Shown: piece after piece, positions 7,447 to 47,786 of the stretch | How the letters are laid out: the number at the start of each line of letters is the position of its first letter | Position numbering within the stretch: the first letter of the stretch is position 1 | From: Clavulina sp. PMI_390 | Lineage: Eukaryota > Basidiomycota > Agaricomycetes > Cantharellales > Hydnaceae | NCBI GenBank assembly: GCA_015039315.1 | Contig: WIDE01000047.1 | Coordinates: 2,981 to 58,234, forward strand | Direction: 5' to 3' | Length of the DNA: 55,254 nucleotides | Translations under genes and position numbers: made by a program | The notes under the pieces: model-generated | What the model was told of the DNA's origin: nothing | What the model saw: only the letters and a program-made list of their open reading frames with translations | The model's database searches: none

Positions 7447-8745
7447 TCACTGTGATAGAGAGGTTTTGTCAGCATTCAACCCGACAACTGCATAGTCTAA
7501 CTCACCAAAAAGTAGTCAGGAACGCGGCGCGAAACGAGAGGCTCGCCAGCACGCGGTGCGGGATCGAATTGCAAGCTGGTAAACGTGAGGTACGGAGTGT
7601 CAAATATTGCCATACTAGAACATAAAAAATAGTATATAACTCACAAGCTGTAGGATAATTTTTCATCTATCTCCATAATGGCAGCCTGATTACCACAGCG
7701 GTAACAGTAGTTTGGTGCGCTGAAAATCGTTACCACGTTACGGTCTTGGCTCCAGTTGTACCCTAGAATTTTTGGCGAGCCGGTTTATTTCAAAATGATA
7801 GACGGAGTGACGGAATTGTACAAACCTTCCATCACAAGTTGATGTGCCCGGGCAATCAATGTCAGCCCGTTGTTATGATTGAAGGCTTCAGAGATATCCT
7901 GGCCAAATGTGTAGCCTGCGCCTCGTGGAGATATTCCCCAACCACAGCGATCGTCTGGATCAGACCAAAGCAGATCACACATCGGGCCCTCATGTGGCAC
8001 CTCTTGCACCCGATCTATGCCTCGCACGTGGTCTAGGGTATCGATGGAGGGGGAAAGCCCGCCGTGGAGGCAGAAGATCTACACGAAAACTTTCAGTGGG
8101 ATACAGGATCGATGCCGCAGCATGACATACTTGGTTGTCGATGAGAGCCGTTAAGGGAAGGTAATCGAAGAGATCGGTGAAGAATCGCCAGACATTGGCG
8201 TTACCATATTTTCGTAGGCATTCATCATAGAAGCCATAGACTTGGGTGATTTGGCGTGATTCGTGGTTTCCCCGTAGAATCGTCACGCGATCGCGATACC
8301 GCAGTTTGAGTGAAACAAGAAGAGTGACGGTCTCAACAGAGTAGTATCCTCGGTCAACGTAGTCACCCATGAAGAGATAGTTAGTATCAGGAGAGTTCCC
8401 CCCGATTCTGAAGAGCTCTGAAAGGTCGTGCTATCAAGATTTAGGGATCGCGCGTAGCATGATAAGGACGTGATGTCGAGGACAGCTAATGGATAGAGGA
8501 GGGGCACATACGAATTGGCCGTGGATATCCCCGCAGACTGTCACTGGACATCGCACAGGTTGTACATTGGATTCGGAAATGAGGATCTCGCGAGTCTTCC
8601 AGACATTTGTGAGCGATCCAGTTGATATTCAACCAGAATTTATGAGAGTATATACCTTTTCACACAGCTTCTTAACGTCGGCCTCCGTCAGCTGCTTGCA
8701 TTGGCTGAGCTGCTCGATCCAACCGTCGACCATACTTTCGTCCAT
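7447..8745 (-). CDS. Serine/threonine protein phosphatase 2A catalytic subunit
   Basis: Seven exons are proposed: 8745-8656, 8595-8512, 8430-8131, 8078-7826, 7762-7645, 7575-7506 and 7449-7447, giving 305 residues, the normal PP2A-C length. The start is fixed by [13 protein letters not shown], which lines up with PP2A N-termini. Metal-binding and catalytic motifs are [22 protein letters not shown] and [19 protein letters not shown], followed by [13 protein letters not shown]. The C-terminus is the invariant DYFL tail whose last Leu is carboxymethylated in known PP2A. The codon for that Leu is the last of exon 6. A 56-nt intron follows, and exon 7 contributes only TGA. The gene lies upstream of the carnitine acetyltransferase gene on the same strand, 163 bp away. 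Confidence 0.96.
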
Positions 8746-9231
8746 GTTTAGCAGAATGTTGATGTTTGCTTGATGACAGTCACGTGTTCGTTCGAACAAT
8801 CTCGTCATCTCTCCCGTATATAAACGCTCTCTACACCATATCCTGATATTCATGCATTCTACGAGCGCAAATTTTACTCCTACTGCTGTATCCGGGTCCT
8901 CGTACCACACCCTTGACGTCCGGCTTATTCTTTGGTACCTTTTCCTGTGAGAGGGAGGTTGTATGTTGTTCTACGACCCATCAAAAATTAGACAAAATCC
9001 CTTGCTCGAATCAGCATGACCCCACTTCACCTCAAATCGATTTATGTGCTGGGGATGCTATGAGAATAGAAGAGGCTCTCGCCAGACGAATCAGTCTGTA
9101 GTTGTCACGGGGTACTTGTGCCTCCCAATCACTTCTGATACTTCATCAATTTTCCATGCGAGGCCTTGCACAATCCATAGTGCATTGATGTCATCGATGT
9201 CGTGACAGAATCCTCCAAACTATCACAGCAA
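8746..9231. other. Intergenic region upstream of PP2A
   Basis: No conserved gene seen. It should contain the PP2A promoter on the minus strand. A short minus-strand reading frame (9129-9231) could be a second exon of the small secreted candidate at 9232-9426 (see that entry). Confidence 0.4.
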
Positions 9232-36486: not shown

Positions 36487-39400
36487 TCATACAGTGGCGG
36501 AACCTGCGGGTAGCTCAATCTGTGGCAGTCCACCTAGCTGTTCTGCCAGCTCTTTCAGGGGTTCCCACCAGCTCTCTCCAACCTTTGCCCTTCTGTTTTT
36601 CATATCTGCGTGTGCAACCACGTCCTGAACAGGTACAAACTTTACGCTTGTGCCCTCGATAGCGATCATTGCCGCACTCTCGCGGGGAGCACGTCGCGGC
36701 CTGGAACCCGAAACAGTGGCGGACATTGAGAGCAAGCGGTCGTGCTTACCCGTGGGGGTAGTGGCACCAGAGTATGGAGGAGATGAAGGGGGTGGTGATG
36801 CTGGACCTGTTGGATTGAGCGCGTGATCTTCTAGGAAAAACATGCATTTGGAAGCGAGGCGGACGGCGCGGGCACGGTCGAGCGGGGAAGGGATGCCGCC
36901 TTGAAGTGTATGGCCAAGTGATGCAGATCGCGAATCGAAGAGTGAATCGCCTTCTTCTTTGAAAATCTTCATAATGAGGTCTGTCGTGTACACAGATGAA
37001 GCCTTCTCATTCCTGCCGATTCCCGACATGCGACGAATGATAGATTTAGCAGAGGAGCGGGAGGAGAAAAAACCACTTGAAGCGATCACGGGCTTGAACA
37101 CGCACCGCAGCACCAACCGACCCTCGCTCTTTCCCTTGACATCCAGCCGATACCGAGTCTTCAAATTCTCTACGTCTCGCAGGAGATCTGCCAACTTTAT
37201 GCCCACCTCTGGTGTGTAAGTAAGGACGGCGCCAGTCTGGGCATCAGACACCACAGAATCAACAGTCATTATCCCAGGGAAGGGTAAAAAGTTAAGGCCA
37301 AAAGGAAACGGTCGAGGACTCTTACCGCTAGTGCGCCCATTGTTGCAATATATCCACAGCCACCACCTTGCGTTTCAACGACGAATACTCGATTCCGGCT
37401 AGCGCTCGCGCTCTGCTTGATCGCATCACAAGCGTCCATCAAACTGTTCAAACTCGTGTCGCTCCCCAATGAAAACTCAGTGACGGGTACGTTGTTGCTG
37501 ATTGTCGCAGGTAGATGAACCATTGGGATGTTGAGAGCAGGGTAGAGATCTCGGCCCTTTTCGAGAATCAATAGCGATGAAAACGCTTCGAAACCTCCGA
37601 TTAGCAGCATTCCATCGATTTTATGTTCCTGGAGCCTTGCGGCAACGGTACCCAGGTCGATATCGGGCAGCGAGCGATTCGTACCGAGCTCCGACCCACC
37701 GCGTGTCGTCCAGTTGTCAACTTCGAGCCAGGTGAGCGGTTTTAGGTGGTCTTGGAGTAGCCCAGAGAATCCATTGTAAATCGCAAGTGGAGTATGCCCG
37801 CGGTTGACGCAAAAGCGGACGGCAGTACGCGTCGCCGCATTCATCCCTCCAGCGGGGGCACCAACGCTGTTGTCCATGAAGCTTGTCTGTGAGAGGCGAT
37901 CGGCACAAAATAGACGTAGGTCAAACGCACTGCATAATCCCAATTGTCAATCCCTATCATGAATGTTCAACCAGTCGTCAAACAAAATCAATCGCAAGTG
38001 GCCTGACCAGCTCGTTGAGTAAATTGATATGTACCTTTTGTTGCCCCGTTGCCCCAGCACCCCCAGTGGAGCTCGATTTGGCGCGCTCTGCCAGTGTGCT
38101 GGTCAAGTAAAAACTCTGGAGCGTCTCTGCGAACTCAGGGTCACGCATTGCCATGGCTTTGTCGAATTCTTTAGAGGCAATTGCTTTCGCAACAGCTTGA
38201 GTCTTGACATTTACCACAGCATTACAAGTCGGCCACGAGACCAAATGGTGATAAAGATGAGTTAGAACAACTCAGCCATTGTCGAAGAAAGAATATACGG
38301 ACCCTCTCAACCGCTTCGACTAATGGCACGCGGGTGATCTTATTTTCCGATATCCCAATCATGTAGCTTGGGGTCTCAGGTGTGGCCGTTAATAGTGCGT
38401 CGACCGCTTCACGGCCCTGAAGCGTTGCCTATCGGGACATGAGGAGGGTTTCAGTTTATGAGTCAGATTATAACGAAAATCGGGAAGAGAAAAAGCGGGG
38501 GAGGGATCTGAATGTGATAAATACAAATCGTGAAACTCACCAAGATACGATCCCACGCACAGGGCTTCCCGCCTCGCTGCGTGTGGCCAAGAGTTGTTAC
38601 CCTTGTGTCCAGCCCCAATCGGTCGGAGAGGACATCCTTGACCTGCGCGGCCGAGATAGGCTGCAGAGCGGTATCGATAGCTCCCTCTGCAATGATCACA
38701 ATTGTCTTGCGCTTGCCAGCATCACGATGCTAATGATGCACACGGAGGAGAGGGGAATAACGCAAATTATGTTACTGGGAGAAAATGATACAGGAGACGG
38801 GATAACTTACGCTGGTGATAATTTTGCACATATCATCCTCCCATGAGCCTGCCTTGGCAGGTTGCTCGGGGATGAAGATGAAATCTGCGCCAGAACTTTA
38901 GAGTGAACAATGCCGAGGACCATTGAACCGACAGTTTGCATTGACCAACAAGAAGGGAAGGAAAAGAGTTCGATTCCATACCTGACGCCAGCCAACAATC
39001 CAAGCCACCCGCAGTGTCTACCCATAACTTCAACAACGAAAGCACGCGAGTGCGAGCTAGCTGTAGTGTTGATAGCATCGATACTCTCACAGATACGATG
39101 AAGAGCAGTAGGGGCGCCAATGGTCATATCAGTGAGAGCCATGTCATTGTCGATGGAGCCGACAAGACCGACGATACGTAGGTGAGCATTAGCTTTTGCT
39201 TGGGCGGTGGTGATGAGTTCTTTGAGTGTAATAAGCCAATATACTTCAGCATAAATATTGCTTCGGCCGAAGAAAGAAAGCAAATAATGACGCACGTTTC
39301 TCCAACAGCTGTTTGACCAGACTAGGCCATTCTGCACGGAGCTTATCAGCACCTGTGAGGGAGCCATCACCACCACAGACGACTAGAGCCTCGATCCCTT

Positions 39401-42514: not shown

Positions 42515-45500
42515 TCAGAACGCAAACCAGAAATAAGACATAGCCAAGATGAGTCCAAAGCGCTGAATCGAATTCTTGCGCTCATTCATCCTCGGCCCAG
42601 TGCCCGCAAGATTAGTGAACCAGTCAAACCTTTGCATGAGCAGGATCCATTCTCCTCGCTCCACCATTCCGACAGTCCGGCCAAGCTCGGACAGCATACG
42701 GATTATGGTGCTTTCCATAATGGCAAGAATCCAGTGGACACCTTGAGTGCTCGTTCGGAAACAGATTTGACCAGCATCTCTATAAAGGTGACGATAGAGG
42801 TCGTGAATCAGGTTAGCCACGATAACGATGACTGCTAGTTTCATCGCCTCCAGGGGGAGAAGGGGTAGCCACAGGAAGGCCTGAGCACGGGGTACAATAA
42901 AGCCCTTGATGAGCCTGGTGATCGTCTCAATGATGGCGAATATGGTAATTAGCAATGCAAGCTCTCCGGAGTTCGGAGCGTAGTCCCAGTAGCACAGATT
43001 GGGGTATTTTTTCACCAACGCACCATCTCCATGAGCCCACTTAACGAACCTCCAATAAGAGCGGTGTCCGTTGAGCCACCAAGGATGAGTGACCACAGCT
43101 TCACGAGCGGGAAGAAGCCCTTCTCCTCCATGTTTAAGCGAATATTCCCGACGCTTGATGCAATAATCGATGTCTTCGCCTCCGCCCGTTTTGGGGAAAT
43201 CCAAATCAAATGAAATCCCATCATTCACGCGCCTCGAAGCAAGATTCGCCGTCACTCCCCACGGGATAGAGCCGTCCCACTTGGTCGCGATGTCCCAGAA
43301 GTACGTAACGCCCGAGAGGTGCAAGGCCGCAGTAAAAATGGTATCTGCGGGTGGAAAGTTGCTTGTGCCTACGAAGCCGGCCGCATTATGATGCTTACGG
43401 ATCACTTCTTCCAGTCTGATGAGGATATCGGGAGAGGGTTGGACATCATCATCCAGAAACAGCACCCACTCGGCCGCAGACTCCCTCAAGCCACGGTTTC
43501 GTGACGTGCTAGCGCCACTGTTTTGGCTGTTGATACGAATTCGAATATCGGGGCGATGAGAATACTCGGATAGAAGAGCCGCGGTTTGGCGTGCACAGGG
43601 GTCATCGATGATAATGATGAAATGTGTAGTTGCCGTAGAAGAGCACTGGAGCTTGAGCATTGGACGTATAAGTCGGAGATCGACACGATATGAGGGAATG
43701 ATGACATCGATGGTAAGGAGGCGACAATCTGAGAAGCCCTCCGTGCGAAGCCACGCCTCAACCGCATTGGTTGCGTTATCCAGGGTATCAAATGTCCAAT
43801 TTGTGGCAGATTGTTTTATATAACGAGCATCTCCTTCGCCCCCAATGGAGTTTGTGAGACGTAGGGAGAGCATCAGGGACGTTCCGAAGCGGCGGTATAG
43901 TTGGAAGAGGAAAGGGTCACCATCTTGATTGATAAAGATGGGCGGAATAACTTCTCCTTGGAATATGTCCATGTGGGTACGATGGAGGACCGGGAATGTG
44001 GGCATTCCTGGAAATGAACAATCGGTGAATGCCACACACCCAATACCGTGAGGGAGATGGCGTTCATCAGCGAGGTTTAAAAACGCTTGATGGATGTTGC
44101 GCATCCACCCCTCATCAAGCAGCTGCACATCATCGCCCATCAAGACGTAGTAATCACAGTCATCCTTCCACGCCGCACGAGCGCAATCTCTCCAAAGAGC
44201 GCACACGTGTCCGCGGGGCTGCTTCAAGACGAGGGTCATGATTGACGAAAGGGGAATGCCAGCCTGAAGCAACAGCTCTGTCACCTTATCAAAGTCACAT
44301 TGGGGGCTTTTCGAAAGAAGGAACTCATCGTCATGATCAATGGCGATGTAAATTCGGGACTCAAAGCGCACGCCTCCCAACGATTTGGTGTCACGCCAGG
44401 TCGTGCTGAGTAGCGAGCGGACGAAGAGGGTCAGAGCCTCAAGGCAATCACCAGGGCGCTTGCTTCCCCGAGAAGTTACGGGCAGAAGGAGCGCAAACGT
44501 TATGACCTCACTAGAGAGGTGGGTAACACGACTGACGCGCAAATCGGACGCAGTCACAGCCCCCCGAGCCACCAAAGACTCAATTTCGCCGCGTATCCAC
44601 TCCCCTGTACGATTCATTCCCTCTCCAAGCGAGACCAATGGCTCCCAGTGTAGCTGATGTTTCATAAGATCGTTGTTCGCGTTTCGTGAAGCGACCCCAG
44701 TCTCTCTTTTCGCATTATGGATGAGAGTAACGTGCTCAGCATCAAGGCCGGCACTTTGGAGAGCAATGAGAGCCAATTCATCCACGGTGACCGAGTGATC
44801 AGAGCCTATATTGATGGGCTTGTCAACATCGGAACGAACGAGGCGGATAATCGCGTCAATTGCATCGTCTATGAATAGGAAACTGCGACGTTGCATACCA
44901 CTCCCCCAGACTTCCATTGACATCTCGGAAGGACGAGGGTTACTCAAAGCAAGAGCATGGGCCTTACGCAAAAGAGCTGCTGGAGCCTTTTCGCGTCCGT
45001 CCATGAAGGATCCACGAGGGCCATAGACATTATGAAAGCGCGCAATACGAACAGTGATATGATGGGAGTTCTGGTCGCAATACACAGATACCAGGTTTTC
45101 CGAAGAATACTTCTCCAAGCCATAGAGACCTTGTGGTGAGACAGGGTGGTGGATGACATCGCTCTCGCGAAGGGAGACATCCTGATCGTCAAGACCTTGG
45201 AGAGCCTCAGGATAGACGCACGCTGAAGAAGCATAGAAGAACATTTTGACGGAGGATGAGTTTAACGTGCAAGCTGAGAGGATATTCATGGTCATCTCGT
45301 GATTTTCCCGGTAGATTTGACTACCGTTTTCGGAGTGTATAGTCCCCATGCCACCCATCTGAGCGGCAAGGTGGAAGACAGCATGGACTCCATGAATGGC
45401 ACGGACGCAATCCTGCGGATTGCAGAGATTACCGACCATAACTTCATCGGCAATATCACCGGAAAACTTGCTAGTGGGCGCAATGTCAAGAATGCGAACA

Positions 45501-45741
45501 AAATACCCCTCTGTCAATAAGCGATTGGCAAGATGCGAGCCCTAATCAAAAGAAACTATGAGTCTCACTCGTTTTTAATGATAGGAGAACTTGCTATGAA
45601 TCCATTTCCTCCCGTAATAAGAATCTTATAGTCCTTAGTGGCAGGCACTGGTAGGGTCAGCAGCCTAGATGGTCATCTTAGTTAAGAGATATTTCTGAGC
45701 TGCTGTCAAAGGACTTACGGAGGACTAGCTTGATCACCCAT
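42515..45741 (-). CDS. Tri-domain sugar enzyme: SDR epimerase, GT-A-like domain, membrane GT2
   Basis: Three exons, 45741-45719, 45664-45595 and 45541-42515, give 1039 residues. The second intron is GC-AG with donor GCAAGT. The first two introns fall within the first 93 coding bases, and the remaining 3027 bases are uninterrupted. Residues about 20-365 form an extended short-chain dehydrogenase. They hold the NAD motif TGGNGFIGSHL (25-35), a Ser-rich SSACVYP, the catalytic YGLEK (Tyr171, Lys175), NVYGPRG and RRSFLFIDDAI, closest in feel to GDP-mannose 3,5-epimerase or dTDP-sugar epimerase/dehydratase types. Residues about 378-600 look like a GT-A fold with YYVLMGDDV (acidic pair near 501). 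Residues about 642-900 are a GT2 with VIIPSYRVD, NSGASTSRNRGL and FLDDDV (DxD). Two or three hydrophobic segments follow. It probably makes and transfers an unusual sugar. Confidence 0.88.
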
Positions 45742-46193
45742 CCTTTCTTGGGCTCTCCTTATCGCGAGAAAGGGGGGAGGGGAGGGAAGGAGTAATGAAG
45801 CAAGGGGTGTGACAACAAAGGTGGCTTAAAAATATGAATACGGTGGTGATCTAGCGCGGAAGAGGACGGAGATTAGCGCGCGTGTTGTCGTCATCAAACA
45901 GTTTATTCACAGAAGGTGTTGAGGTTTGGGTGACTGGCTAAACCGCATCAGTTGTGTCCGCAGTCCATAGATGAAAATTGAGCACGGGCGCCTGTGAATA
46001 AATCGAGCTCCACACTAGCGACCAAAGCCTTGAAATATTTTGAATGGTAGCGAATCCTACGTCAGTGAAGAACTGGAAACTTGATATGAGAAAGTAATTA
46101 GCTCTGATGACCGCGCGGCAACTTGTTGAGCTAATACTCACCACGAGCATAGGTCTTCCTTACTCCAGCCTCAGGATTCACACTTGACACAGC
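45742..46193. promoter_or_regulatory. Divergent promoter between the two sugar-enzyme genes
   Basis: 452 bp between the ATG of the epimerase-glycosyltransferase gene (-) and the ATG of the methyltransferase-GT8 gene (+). It includes a purine run (GAGAAAGGGGGGAGGGGAGG at about 45774-45793) close to the minus-strand start. No other gene fits, so shared regulation is likely. Confidence 0.5.
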
Positions 46194-47786
46194 ATGTCGT
46201 ACCGGTGGACAGCCGAGCAGGACTGGTTTTCGGCTAATATTCCAGCCTGGACTCATTGGATATCTCTTATCGAAAGTTCAACCCCGCGCCTCCTTGAGAT
46301 AGGCAGCTGGGAGGGCCGCTCAGCCGTTTGGTTATTAGAGAACGCCTGTAAGCTTGGTGGCGACATCACATGTATTGATCATTTTGATCTAATGGCAACA
46401 TTGGCGGGTCGTGAGCGCTACAACCGAGTGATCCATAACATGAAGCTTACCGGGAAGACGTTTCGGATCATTGATGACTTCAGTATCCCTGCCCTCTATA
46501 CGCTGCTTGATGAGAGCCTCATGCCAAACGCTTGTTCCGGATTCGACTTTGTATATGTTGACGGCTCACACGAAGCCGATGACACCCTACTAGATGGAGA
46601 GCTTGCCTGGCGTCTGACAGAGCGTGGTGGAATTGTCATATTTGACGATTACCTGTGGGACACTCAGCCAGTCGGCGGACCACACCACCCTCAGAGAGGG
46701 ATCGACGCATTTCTCGCGCTTCATGACGGGGAATTCGAGGTCCTCGCTGGCCCTGGAGGGAACCAGATCGTCCTAAAGAAAACGATCGAGCGTCGCATTG
46801 GGTTCCTGTCAAAGCGTCATCAGCTTCAGGTTGGGTCCGAGTCCAAGATCGAGTACGAGGTCAATCTCGCATATGTTATGGACTCAGGATATGTCATGCC
46901 TGCGGCAGTGTCCATCAGGAGCGCGCTTGAGCACACATCAGGTCGAGTTTCAGTATACGTACTCGATTGTGGGCTCAAGATGCCAGAGAGAGAGCAGTTG
47001 TATCAACTGGTTTCTCACTTTCCCCAAGTGACACTCATTTTTATAGACGCACCTGGAAGTGCTCTCTCAAGGAAGCTCGGGCCCCAGTGGGGTAAGATTG
47101 ATGTCATCAATGCCCTTCCCGTCGAGCGTGTCTTATATGTTGACGCGGACACTCTGGTTCGCGCTGATCTTCGCACGTTGTGGGACATGAGCATTGATGG
47201 GAACACGCTTGCTGCCGCACCAGATGTTGGCACCCCTCATGGCCCATATGGGAATGAGTACTTCAACGCTGGGGTCATACTTTTTGACCTGGCCTTGGCG
47301 CGTCGAACCTCGAGGGACTTGCTTATCGCCTGCATTGAGGGCAGGGATTTACCATTCGCTGACCAAGACGTGTTAAACATGCATTTCAAAGGGCAATGGA
47401 AGCAGTTCAGCCTTCGATGGAACGCTCAGGGCCTGGGGACATATGCTGAGGCGGAAAGCCCAATACGCCAGAAGCTCCCACTCGAAGAGCTCAGTGATCC
47501 TGCAATTGTACACTTCACAGGGCCTGTGAACCCCTCCCTAGTCGAGGTTCTGAACCCTTGGGTTGCATATGTGGCCAAACCGTGGGGATATGCGGGGTCT
47601 CCCAAGCACCCATTTACGTCGGAATGGTGGACGATTTTGGAACGCACTCCCTGGGCAGGTTGGCGTCAACTTGATAGCACGTTGGGTCATTGGAAAGAGG
47701 CGGAAGATGAAAAGGTTGACGAAGCAATCAGTTTGTTCCGGGAGAGGGTTAGGAAGGAGCAGGAAGTCGTGAAATCGACGTGTTGA
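46194..47786 (+). CDS. Methyltransferase-glycosyltransferase family 8 fusion
   Basis: Single uninterrupted 530-codon frame, unusual in this intron-dense region. Residues 1-200 are a class I SAM-dependent methyltransferase of the Methyltransf_24 type: motif I LEIGSWEGRSAVW (34-46), then IDHFD (61-65) and YVDGSHEADD (121-130), with IVIFDDY. Residues about 222-470 are a GT8 domain. It has VNLAYVMDSGY at its start, the metal-binding YVDADTLVRADL (DxD at 317-319), NAGVILFD, ADQDVLN and HFTGP (about 440). No signal peptide or membrane helix is seen, so it may act in the cytosol. GT8 enzymes use UDP-sugars with retention. The methyltransferase half could methylate the sugar or the nucleotide sugar. 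It is divergent from, and likely partners with, the epimerase-GT2 gene. Confidence 0.88.
   Translation: MSYRWTAEQDWFSANIPAWTHWISLIESSTPRLLEIGSWEGRSAVWLLENACKLGGDITCIDHFDLMATLAGRERYNRVIHNMKLTGKTFRIIDDFSIPALYTLLDESLMPNACSGFDFVYVDGSHEADDTLLDGELAWRLTERGGIVIFDDYLWDTQPVGGPHHPQRGIDAFLALHDGEFEVLAGPGGNQIVLKKTIERRIGFLSKRHQLQVGSESKIEYEVNLAYVMDSGYVMPAAVSIRSALEHTSGRVSVYVLDCGLKMPEREQLYQLVSHFPQVTLIFIDAPGSALSRKLGPQWGKIDVINALPVERVLYVDADTLVRADLRTLWDMSIDGNTLAAAPDVGTPHGPYGNEYFNAGVILFDLALARRTSRDLLIACIEGRDLPFADQDVLNMHFKGQWKQFSLRWNAQGLGTYAEAESPIRQKLPLEELSDPAIVHFTGPVNPSLVEVLNPWVAYVAKPWGYAGSPKHPFTSEWWTILERTPWAGWRQLDSTLGHWKEAEDEKVDEAISLFRERVRKEQEVVKSTC

Follow-up and report, generated by a model that had tools for sequence, protein, structure and literature searches.

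A conserved gene pair of Agaricomycetes, encoding a predicted GDP-mannose 3',5'-epimerase fused to two glycosyltransferase domains and a methyltransferase-GT8 protein, as a candidate module for an O-methylated glycan

The GDP-mannose 3',5'-epimerase (GME) of Arabidopsis (2c54/2c59) forms homodimers and carries nothing but the epimerase, and enzymes of this type also yield GDP-L-gulose and GDP-D-altrose as further products (PMC8787198, in the part available); the available text of that review covers plants, algae and bacteria, and contains no word starting with 'fung'. Known GMEs include a bacterial one, from Methylacidiphilum fumariolicum. In the accessible sections of a survey covering the nucleotide-sugar enzymes of 491 fungal genomes, the clades are listed without GME, and neither 'L-galactose' nor 'GME' occurs in the main text (PMC8092308). 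Here we describe a pair of divergent genes, A and B, in a 55,254-nucleotide stretch (hereafter the window) of contig WIDE01000047.1 of the basidiomycete Clavulina sp. PMI_390 (Cantharellales, Agaricomycetes), whose assembly comprises 39.4 Mb in 301 contigs. Gene A encodes a fungal GME-type domain which, unlike the stand-alone Arabidopsis enzyme, is fused to two glycosyltransferase domains, and gene B encodes a methyltransferase fused to a glycosyltransferase of family 8 (GT8). The parts of the locus are as follows (positions in the window).

42515..45741, minus strand: gene A, GME - middle glycosyltransferase - GT2 fusion of 1032 amino acids in three exons, from sequence reading and homologues
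45719..45741, minus strand: gene A exon 1, with the ATG at 45741, placed by splice signals
45595..45643, minus strand: gene A exon 2, beginning the NAD-binding glycine motif, likewise placed by splice signals
45542..45594, minus strand: second intron of gene A, 53 nucleotides, GC-AG ends (GCAAGT...TTAG)
42515..45541, minus strand: gene A exon 3, 3027 nucleotides, a single open frame of 1008 codons
44537..45541, minus strand: most of the predicted GME domain, residues 25-359 of the full protein (profile, fold, active site)
43730..44524, minus strand: predicted middle glycosyltransferase domain, for which Pfam has no family; it carries AIDHDD and MGDDV motifs and spans residues 364-628 of the full protein
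42962..43726, minus strand: GT2 domain, with LDDDV and GGGED motifs
42518..42970, minus strand: long, partly hydrophobic C-terminal helices (AlphaFold secondary structure and hydropathy)
45742..46193: intergenic region of 452 bases separating the two ATGs
46194..47786, plus strand: gene B, methyltransferase-GT8 fusion of 1593 nucleotides and 530 amino acids, intron-free after the ATG
46293..46652, plus strand: Methyltransf_24 domain, with the S-adenosylmethionine (SAM) motif LEIGSWEGRSAV
46863..47531, plus strand: GT8 domain, with a DAD motif, HFTGP, and KPWGY just behind it

Genes A and B are more than chance reading frames, because near full-length homologues of both exist. Most listed rows are about 48-66% identical (the best 120 of 374 for A and 120 of 523 for B; a third list held the best 120 of 7980), and full-length homologues of both genes occur in many Agaricomycetes, a membership that was confirmed by look-up for three of the named rows and that we presume for the other named ones. 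At least 32 contigs, paired by equal size rather than by contig name, are common to the A and B lists, 25 of them in species-named rows; for an assumed genome of 40 Mb, the mean probability per genome that the two share a contig is 1.7%. Among the matches listed, eight of the nine same-contig pairs with full gene numbers are consecutive (Bondarzewia, Pleurotus ostreatoroseus, two Tulasnella, Stygiomarasmius, Paramarasmius, Fibroporia and Agrocybe), and in the ninth, Cerrena, the numbers of the A and B sides are two apart. A tenth same-contig pair, in Taiwanofungus, has an incomplete gene number and stands outside this count. Adjacency in these species, irrespective of orientation, is here read from consecutive gene numbers. 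A and B are a real, conserved two-gene module, wide in Agaricomycetes, and the pairing proposed by the original prediction is borne out in that sense. They very probably act in one pathway.

The assignment of the first domain of A rests on three lines of comparison. The Pfam Epimerase profile matches the gene A protein at residues 15-270 (E-value 2.6e-42), and this short-chain dehydrogenase/reductase (SDR) domain is nearer in both sequence and fold to GME than to the other SDRs acting on nucleotide sugars. It also shares with Arabidopsis GME eight key active-site positions, namely the Ser/Tyr/Lys triad, C145, K217, R306, R243 and N203 (Arabidopsis numbering), of which C145 and K217 form the Cys-Lys acid/base pair: seven are identical in all 32 sequences, and the eighth is Ser in 30 and Thr in 2. 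By sequence, fold and these eight positions, the SDR half of A is assigned to the GME type, and we consider it likely that it has GME chemistry. Since the epimerase is of this type, the predicted activated sugar is GDP-L-galactose.

Immediately behind the epimerase lies a domain for which Pfam gives no match in the window's own protein, and only two weak, unrelated names, in one member each, among seven members tried. A profile of this middle domain, run against 11,660 open reading frames of at least 80 amino acids from 240 fetched loci, returned one match below 0.01 (E-value 4.6e-4), a 253-residue protein of a viral contig that itself matches the PHROG family 14945, 'glycosyltransferase', at 2.4e-25. 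Profile-profile comparison by HHalign gave 91.8 against this single phage protein and 92.9, over 188 columns, against a ten-member phage profile, with values of at most 0.2 and at most 2.7, respectively, for the control domains (the four other domains of the pair). In the reverse search with the single phage protein as query, the best fusion protein was found at an E-value of 1.7e-6. Relatives in Streptomyces phages are annotated as glycosyltransferase in both annotated stretches examined, a third record being without annotation. As it is remotely homologous to phrog_14945 (over 188 columns; about 21% identity), the middle domain is read as a glycosyltransferase, which agrees with the 'GT-A-like' domain proposed from the sequence at the outset. 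The phage relative differs in being a separate protein of about 214-253 amino acids, whereas the middle domain sits inside a fusion. The PHROG collection gave no direct profile match for the window's own middle domain, and a search for its conserved motifs in prokaryote genomes and viruses confirmed none. HHalign (0.6) does not allow the middle and GT2 domains to be recognised as duplicates, and a hemocyanin match of the conserved FPGMPTFP..HRTH stretch (24 residues, E-value 6.3e-4) is weak and probably due to chance. A phrog_14945-type glycosyltransferase (1514-2272) and a GME gene (about 8001-8990) were also seen on one stretch of a viral contig (L224).

The third domain of A belongs to GT2 by both a profile match (Glycos_transf_2, PF00535, residues 637-743, E-value 1.3e-15, 58.2 bits against a cut-off of 23.3) and a DxD-type motif. 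GGGED and LDDD are present in 32 of 32 sequences, the residue after LDDD being V in 24, I in 7 and T in 1. This core, with its LDDDV and GGGED motifs, is shared with bacterial GT2 enzymes of the EpsD/MftF kind; all NCBIfam matches are nevertheless well under their cut-offs (EpsD, 56.6 of 370 bits), and specificity is therefore not transferable to the GT2 domain of A. AlphaFold places helices after it at 858-882, 897-921, 935-961 and 982-1007 (exon-3 numbering). The window's own protein has hydropathy peaks at 860-883 and 888-915, and the C-terminal peaks differ among the six members scanned; the helices are probably membrane segments.

In gene B, Methyltransf_24 matches residues 34-153 (E-value 1.4e-18, 68.2 bits, cut-off 26.3) and the glycine-rich SAM motif residues are invariant across 31 rows, by which the protein is predicted to include a class I SAM methyltransferase. 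A PHROG match of B to a DNA methyltransferase is weak (E-value 4.1e-4), and the Pfam assignment was preferred. Relatives of this domain in viral contigs are 31-40% identical (80 loci kept); compared with Methyltransf_24-type methyltransferases of phages and bacteria, that of B is distinguished by its fusion to GT8. Glyco_transf_8 (PF01501) matches residues 224-446 (E-value 7e-26, 91.8 bits, cut-off 24.3), with D317 and D319 invariant across 31 rows, so that profile, fold and DxD motif all place this half in GT8, a retaining, alpha-forming family. Its fold relatives WbbM, LgtC, GlyE, glycogenin and the Skp1 galactosyltransferase are 18-28% identical in the best 50 rows, WbbM and the galactosyltransferase LgtC being nearest among the matches listed; these known GT8 enzymes differ from B, which has a methyltransferase in front. 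No membrane segment is predicted in B.

Domains for activation, transfer and methylation are thus all present with conserved motifs, as originally proposed, and suggest the following sequence of events. The N-terminal domain of A is strongly predicted to convert GDP-D-mannose into GDP-L-galactose by the chemistry of plant and bacterial GMEs. The middle glycosyltransferase and GT2 domains, anchored by the C-terminal membrane helices and working on the cytosolic side, would spend this donor at once: an acceptor inside the cell or bound to a membrane would receive L-galactose and probably one more sugar. The GT8 domain of B would then add a further sugar with retention of configuration, and B would place an O-methyl group on one of the sugars in the chain. 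What results would be a short glycolipid or glycan, O-methylated and containing L-galactose, that is common to Agaricomycetes in general. Sequence and structure models establish the domains, the conserved active site, the fused architecture and the linkage. Our confidence falls a little short of even both for a methylated L-galactose glycan built on the cytosolic face and for the pair as a module facing the cytosol that makes its GDP-L-galactose on the spot for an O-methylated glycan, with activity, order of sugars, product, acceptor and location all inferred. More tentative still, and rather doubtful on the present evidence, is the wider proposal that Agaricomycetes possess an unrecognised class-wide GDP-L-galactose route, in which the epimerase is fused to its transferases and cooperates with B towards an O-methylated L-galactose glycan on the cytosolic side of a membrane.

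Several observations weigh against the pair as such a cytosol-facing module. The A-side models of Fibroporia, Cerrena and Agrocybe comprise 478-564 amino acids with SDR families only and no GT2 listed; they are either split gene models or unfused genes, and in Cerrena the skipped gene number could be the missing half of A. In Cantharellus anzutake, which we take to belong to the same order as Clavulina, A and B are found on separate contigs (of 275 kb and 1.6 Mb); the same is seen in Rhodofomes roseus (2.4 Mb and 43.6 kb, where two assemblies may be involved), while in Ceratobasidium sp. 392 the contigs are of 5,556 and 5,622 bases and the tags are non-adjacent. The reverse search with the single phage protein reached the window's own middle domain only at an E-value of 0.058. 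The GT8 half is equally near in fold to enzymes of differing specificity, and the donor of either glycosyltransferase in A need not be GDP-L-galactose. Lastly, the open-licence literature searched, as far as its text was accessible, yielded no mention of L-galactose as a constituent of mushroom polysaccharides.

Among other explanations, the pair might make the known, partly 3-O-methylated galactans or mannogalactans of mushrooms, the GT8 of B adding alpha-D-galactose and its methyltransferase giving 3-O-methyl-galactose, while A would add a side sugar (mannose, or L-galactose in place of L-fucose). The accessible literature describes 3-O-methyl-galactose in alpha-(1,6)-linked galactans of several Pleurotus species (PMC8829048), and the term also appears in what was available on Agaricus and Inonotus; that WbbM and LgtC are the nearest GT8 folds of B would agree with such a role. 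The sugar in print is, however, D-galactose, which needs no GME. Moreover, neither B nor the 1008-codon reading of A has an N-terminal hydrophobic segment by hydropathy, no signal-peptide program having been run, so that nothing points to passage into the Golgi lumen. We regard this explanation as unlikely. A cytosolic glycan on a protein, comparable to the one that amoebae and apicomplexans put on Skp1 and built by A and B transferring sugars in turn, is less likely again and in our view improbable: Skp1-type glycosylation acts on a hydroxyproline of Skp1, and methylation is to our knowledge not part of its glycans. In the best 50 rows the LgtC, GlyE and UGGT folds match better and glycogenin equally well, and a GT8 fold match is by itself not distinctive.

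Two further explanations concern the epimerase. GME serves ascorbate synthesis in plants (PMC8787198, available part), and the domain might feed a similar route in which free L-galactose leads to an L-ascorbate analogue and the glycosyltransferases decorate a small molecule. That the domain is fused to a GT2 followed by hydrophobic helices at the C-terminus nonetheless fits transfer rather than release of free L-galactose, which leaves this explanation very improbable. Glycosides of ascorbate analogues do occur in mushrooms, although the literature searched did not confirm them. Least probable of all is that the SDR domain is of the GDP-L-fucose synthase (GMER) type and that the pair makes an L-fucose glycan. 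In its favour, the genome holds a GDP-mannose 4,6-dehydratase (GMD)-like gene in several exon pieces (contig C1, 345500-347900, L097), and a search for a separate GMER gave no match above 41.5 bits in this genome, where split genes may escape; yet GMER has a His base and a Lys beside the Cys, and these positions are Lys and Arg in 32 of 32 sequences. Gene A is the only GME-type locus found in its own genome. The matches outside the gene, on contig C198 (29% across 99 residues, 51% across 38), look by eye like UDP-xylose synthase.

The component domains of the pair are of known kinds; the open-licence literature searched gave no published account of the fusion or of its broad distribution across a class of fungi. 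In the accessible portions of that literature we found no report of a GME-type enzyme or of GDP-L-galactose in fungi or Agaricomycetes, and work on O-methyl-L-galactose concerns, by title, mostly red-algal and seaweed polysaccharides, with no fungus in any title. If the prediction that A makes and spends GDP-L-galactose is true, a whole fungal class, edible mushrooms included, has an unlisted activated sugar as well as a glycan not characterised so far, and a fused donor-maker and donor-user could serve as a catalyst for L-galactosides.

Concerning the origin of the pair, the GME domains sampled from fungi (14 fusions and 2 stand-alone rows) form one clade in an unrooted tree that names no donor (SH-aLRT, an approximate likelihood-ratio test, 100), with a stem length of 1.13 changes per column. 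The sampled GMEs of plants and algae fall, together with others, in a separate eukaryote clade (95), and those of bacteria and viruses in a group of their own (95). A tree with SDR outgroups had very long branches and was not used. GME was confirmed in at least 574 of 587 candidate prokaryote stretches (80 loci kept, 37-43% identity) and in at least 586 of 600 candidate stretches of viral contigs. Of 160 loci around bacterial and viral GMEs, 4 have matches to the methyltransferase profile, 13 to the GT2 profile, 1 to the middle-domain profile and none to the GT8 profile, which we take to give no hint of a cluster already assembled in bacteria or viruses. The GC content and composition of the locus are those of its surroundings. 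Given the tree, the lack of a module cluster beside GMEs and the ordinary composition, an old origin with vertical descent within Agaricomycetes appears most likely. The horizontal acquisition with later gain of 5' introns that had been suggested is not upheld: the tree offers no donor group for a transfer from any given bacterium, alga or virus, recent transfer is not supported, and any transfer would be ancient and is unproven. The likeness to viral systems that had also been noted holds for shared folds, but identity is low; a viral origin of the pair was rejected, as no row exceeds 21% identity among the best 50 of each of the two lists of viral folds.

The head-to-head placement of the two genes and their long uninterrupted bodies, 3027 nucleotides in the terminal exon of A and 1593 in B, are as first described, while the length of A is 1032 amino acids in our three-exon reading instead of the 1039 originally given. 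The exon joins are predicted from splice signals and homologue N-termini, not from RNA; the first intron, between exons 1 and 2, has GT-AG ends, and the locus reaches 45741 because the two short 5' exons complete gene A. The 452 bases between A and B are probably a bidirectional promoter. Several near full-length homologues (e.g. P0004 and P0121) suggest, short of proof, that their genes have few introns too. The public model of gene A (P0001, 926 amino acids), which is 100% identical where it aligns, lacks residues 379-497 of the continuous reading, and the stretch absent from it (44123-44479, 119 codons) is the first half of the middle glycosyltransferase domain; its N-terminus is also unlike that of the three-exon reading.

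Around the pair, none of ten frames is a sugar transferase and four match Pfam (three phosphofructokinase pieces and one adenosine-deaminase). The adjoining phosphofructokinase gene (36490-39382) is split over several frames, and the earlier claim that A and B are poor in introns relative to most neighbours, as checked against this one gene, agrees with that. On the other side of the pair lies an adenosine-deaminase-like frame, which scores 26.1 bits against a cut-off of 27.

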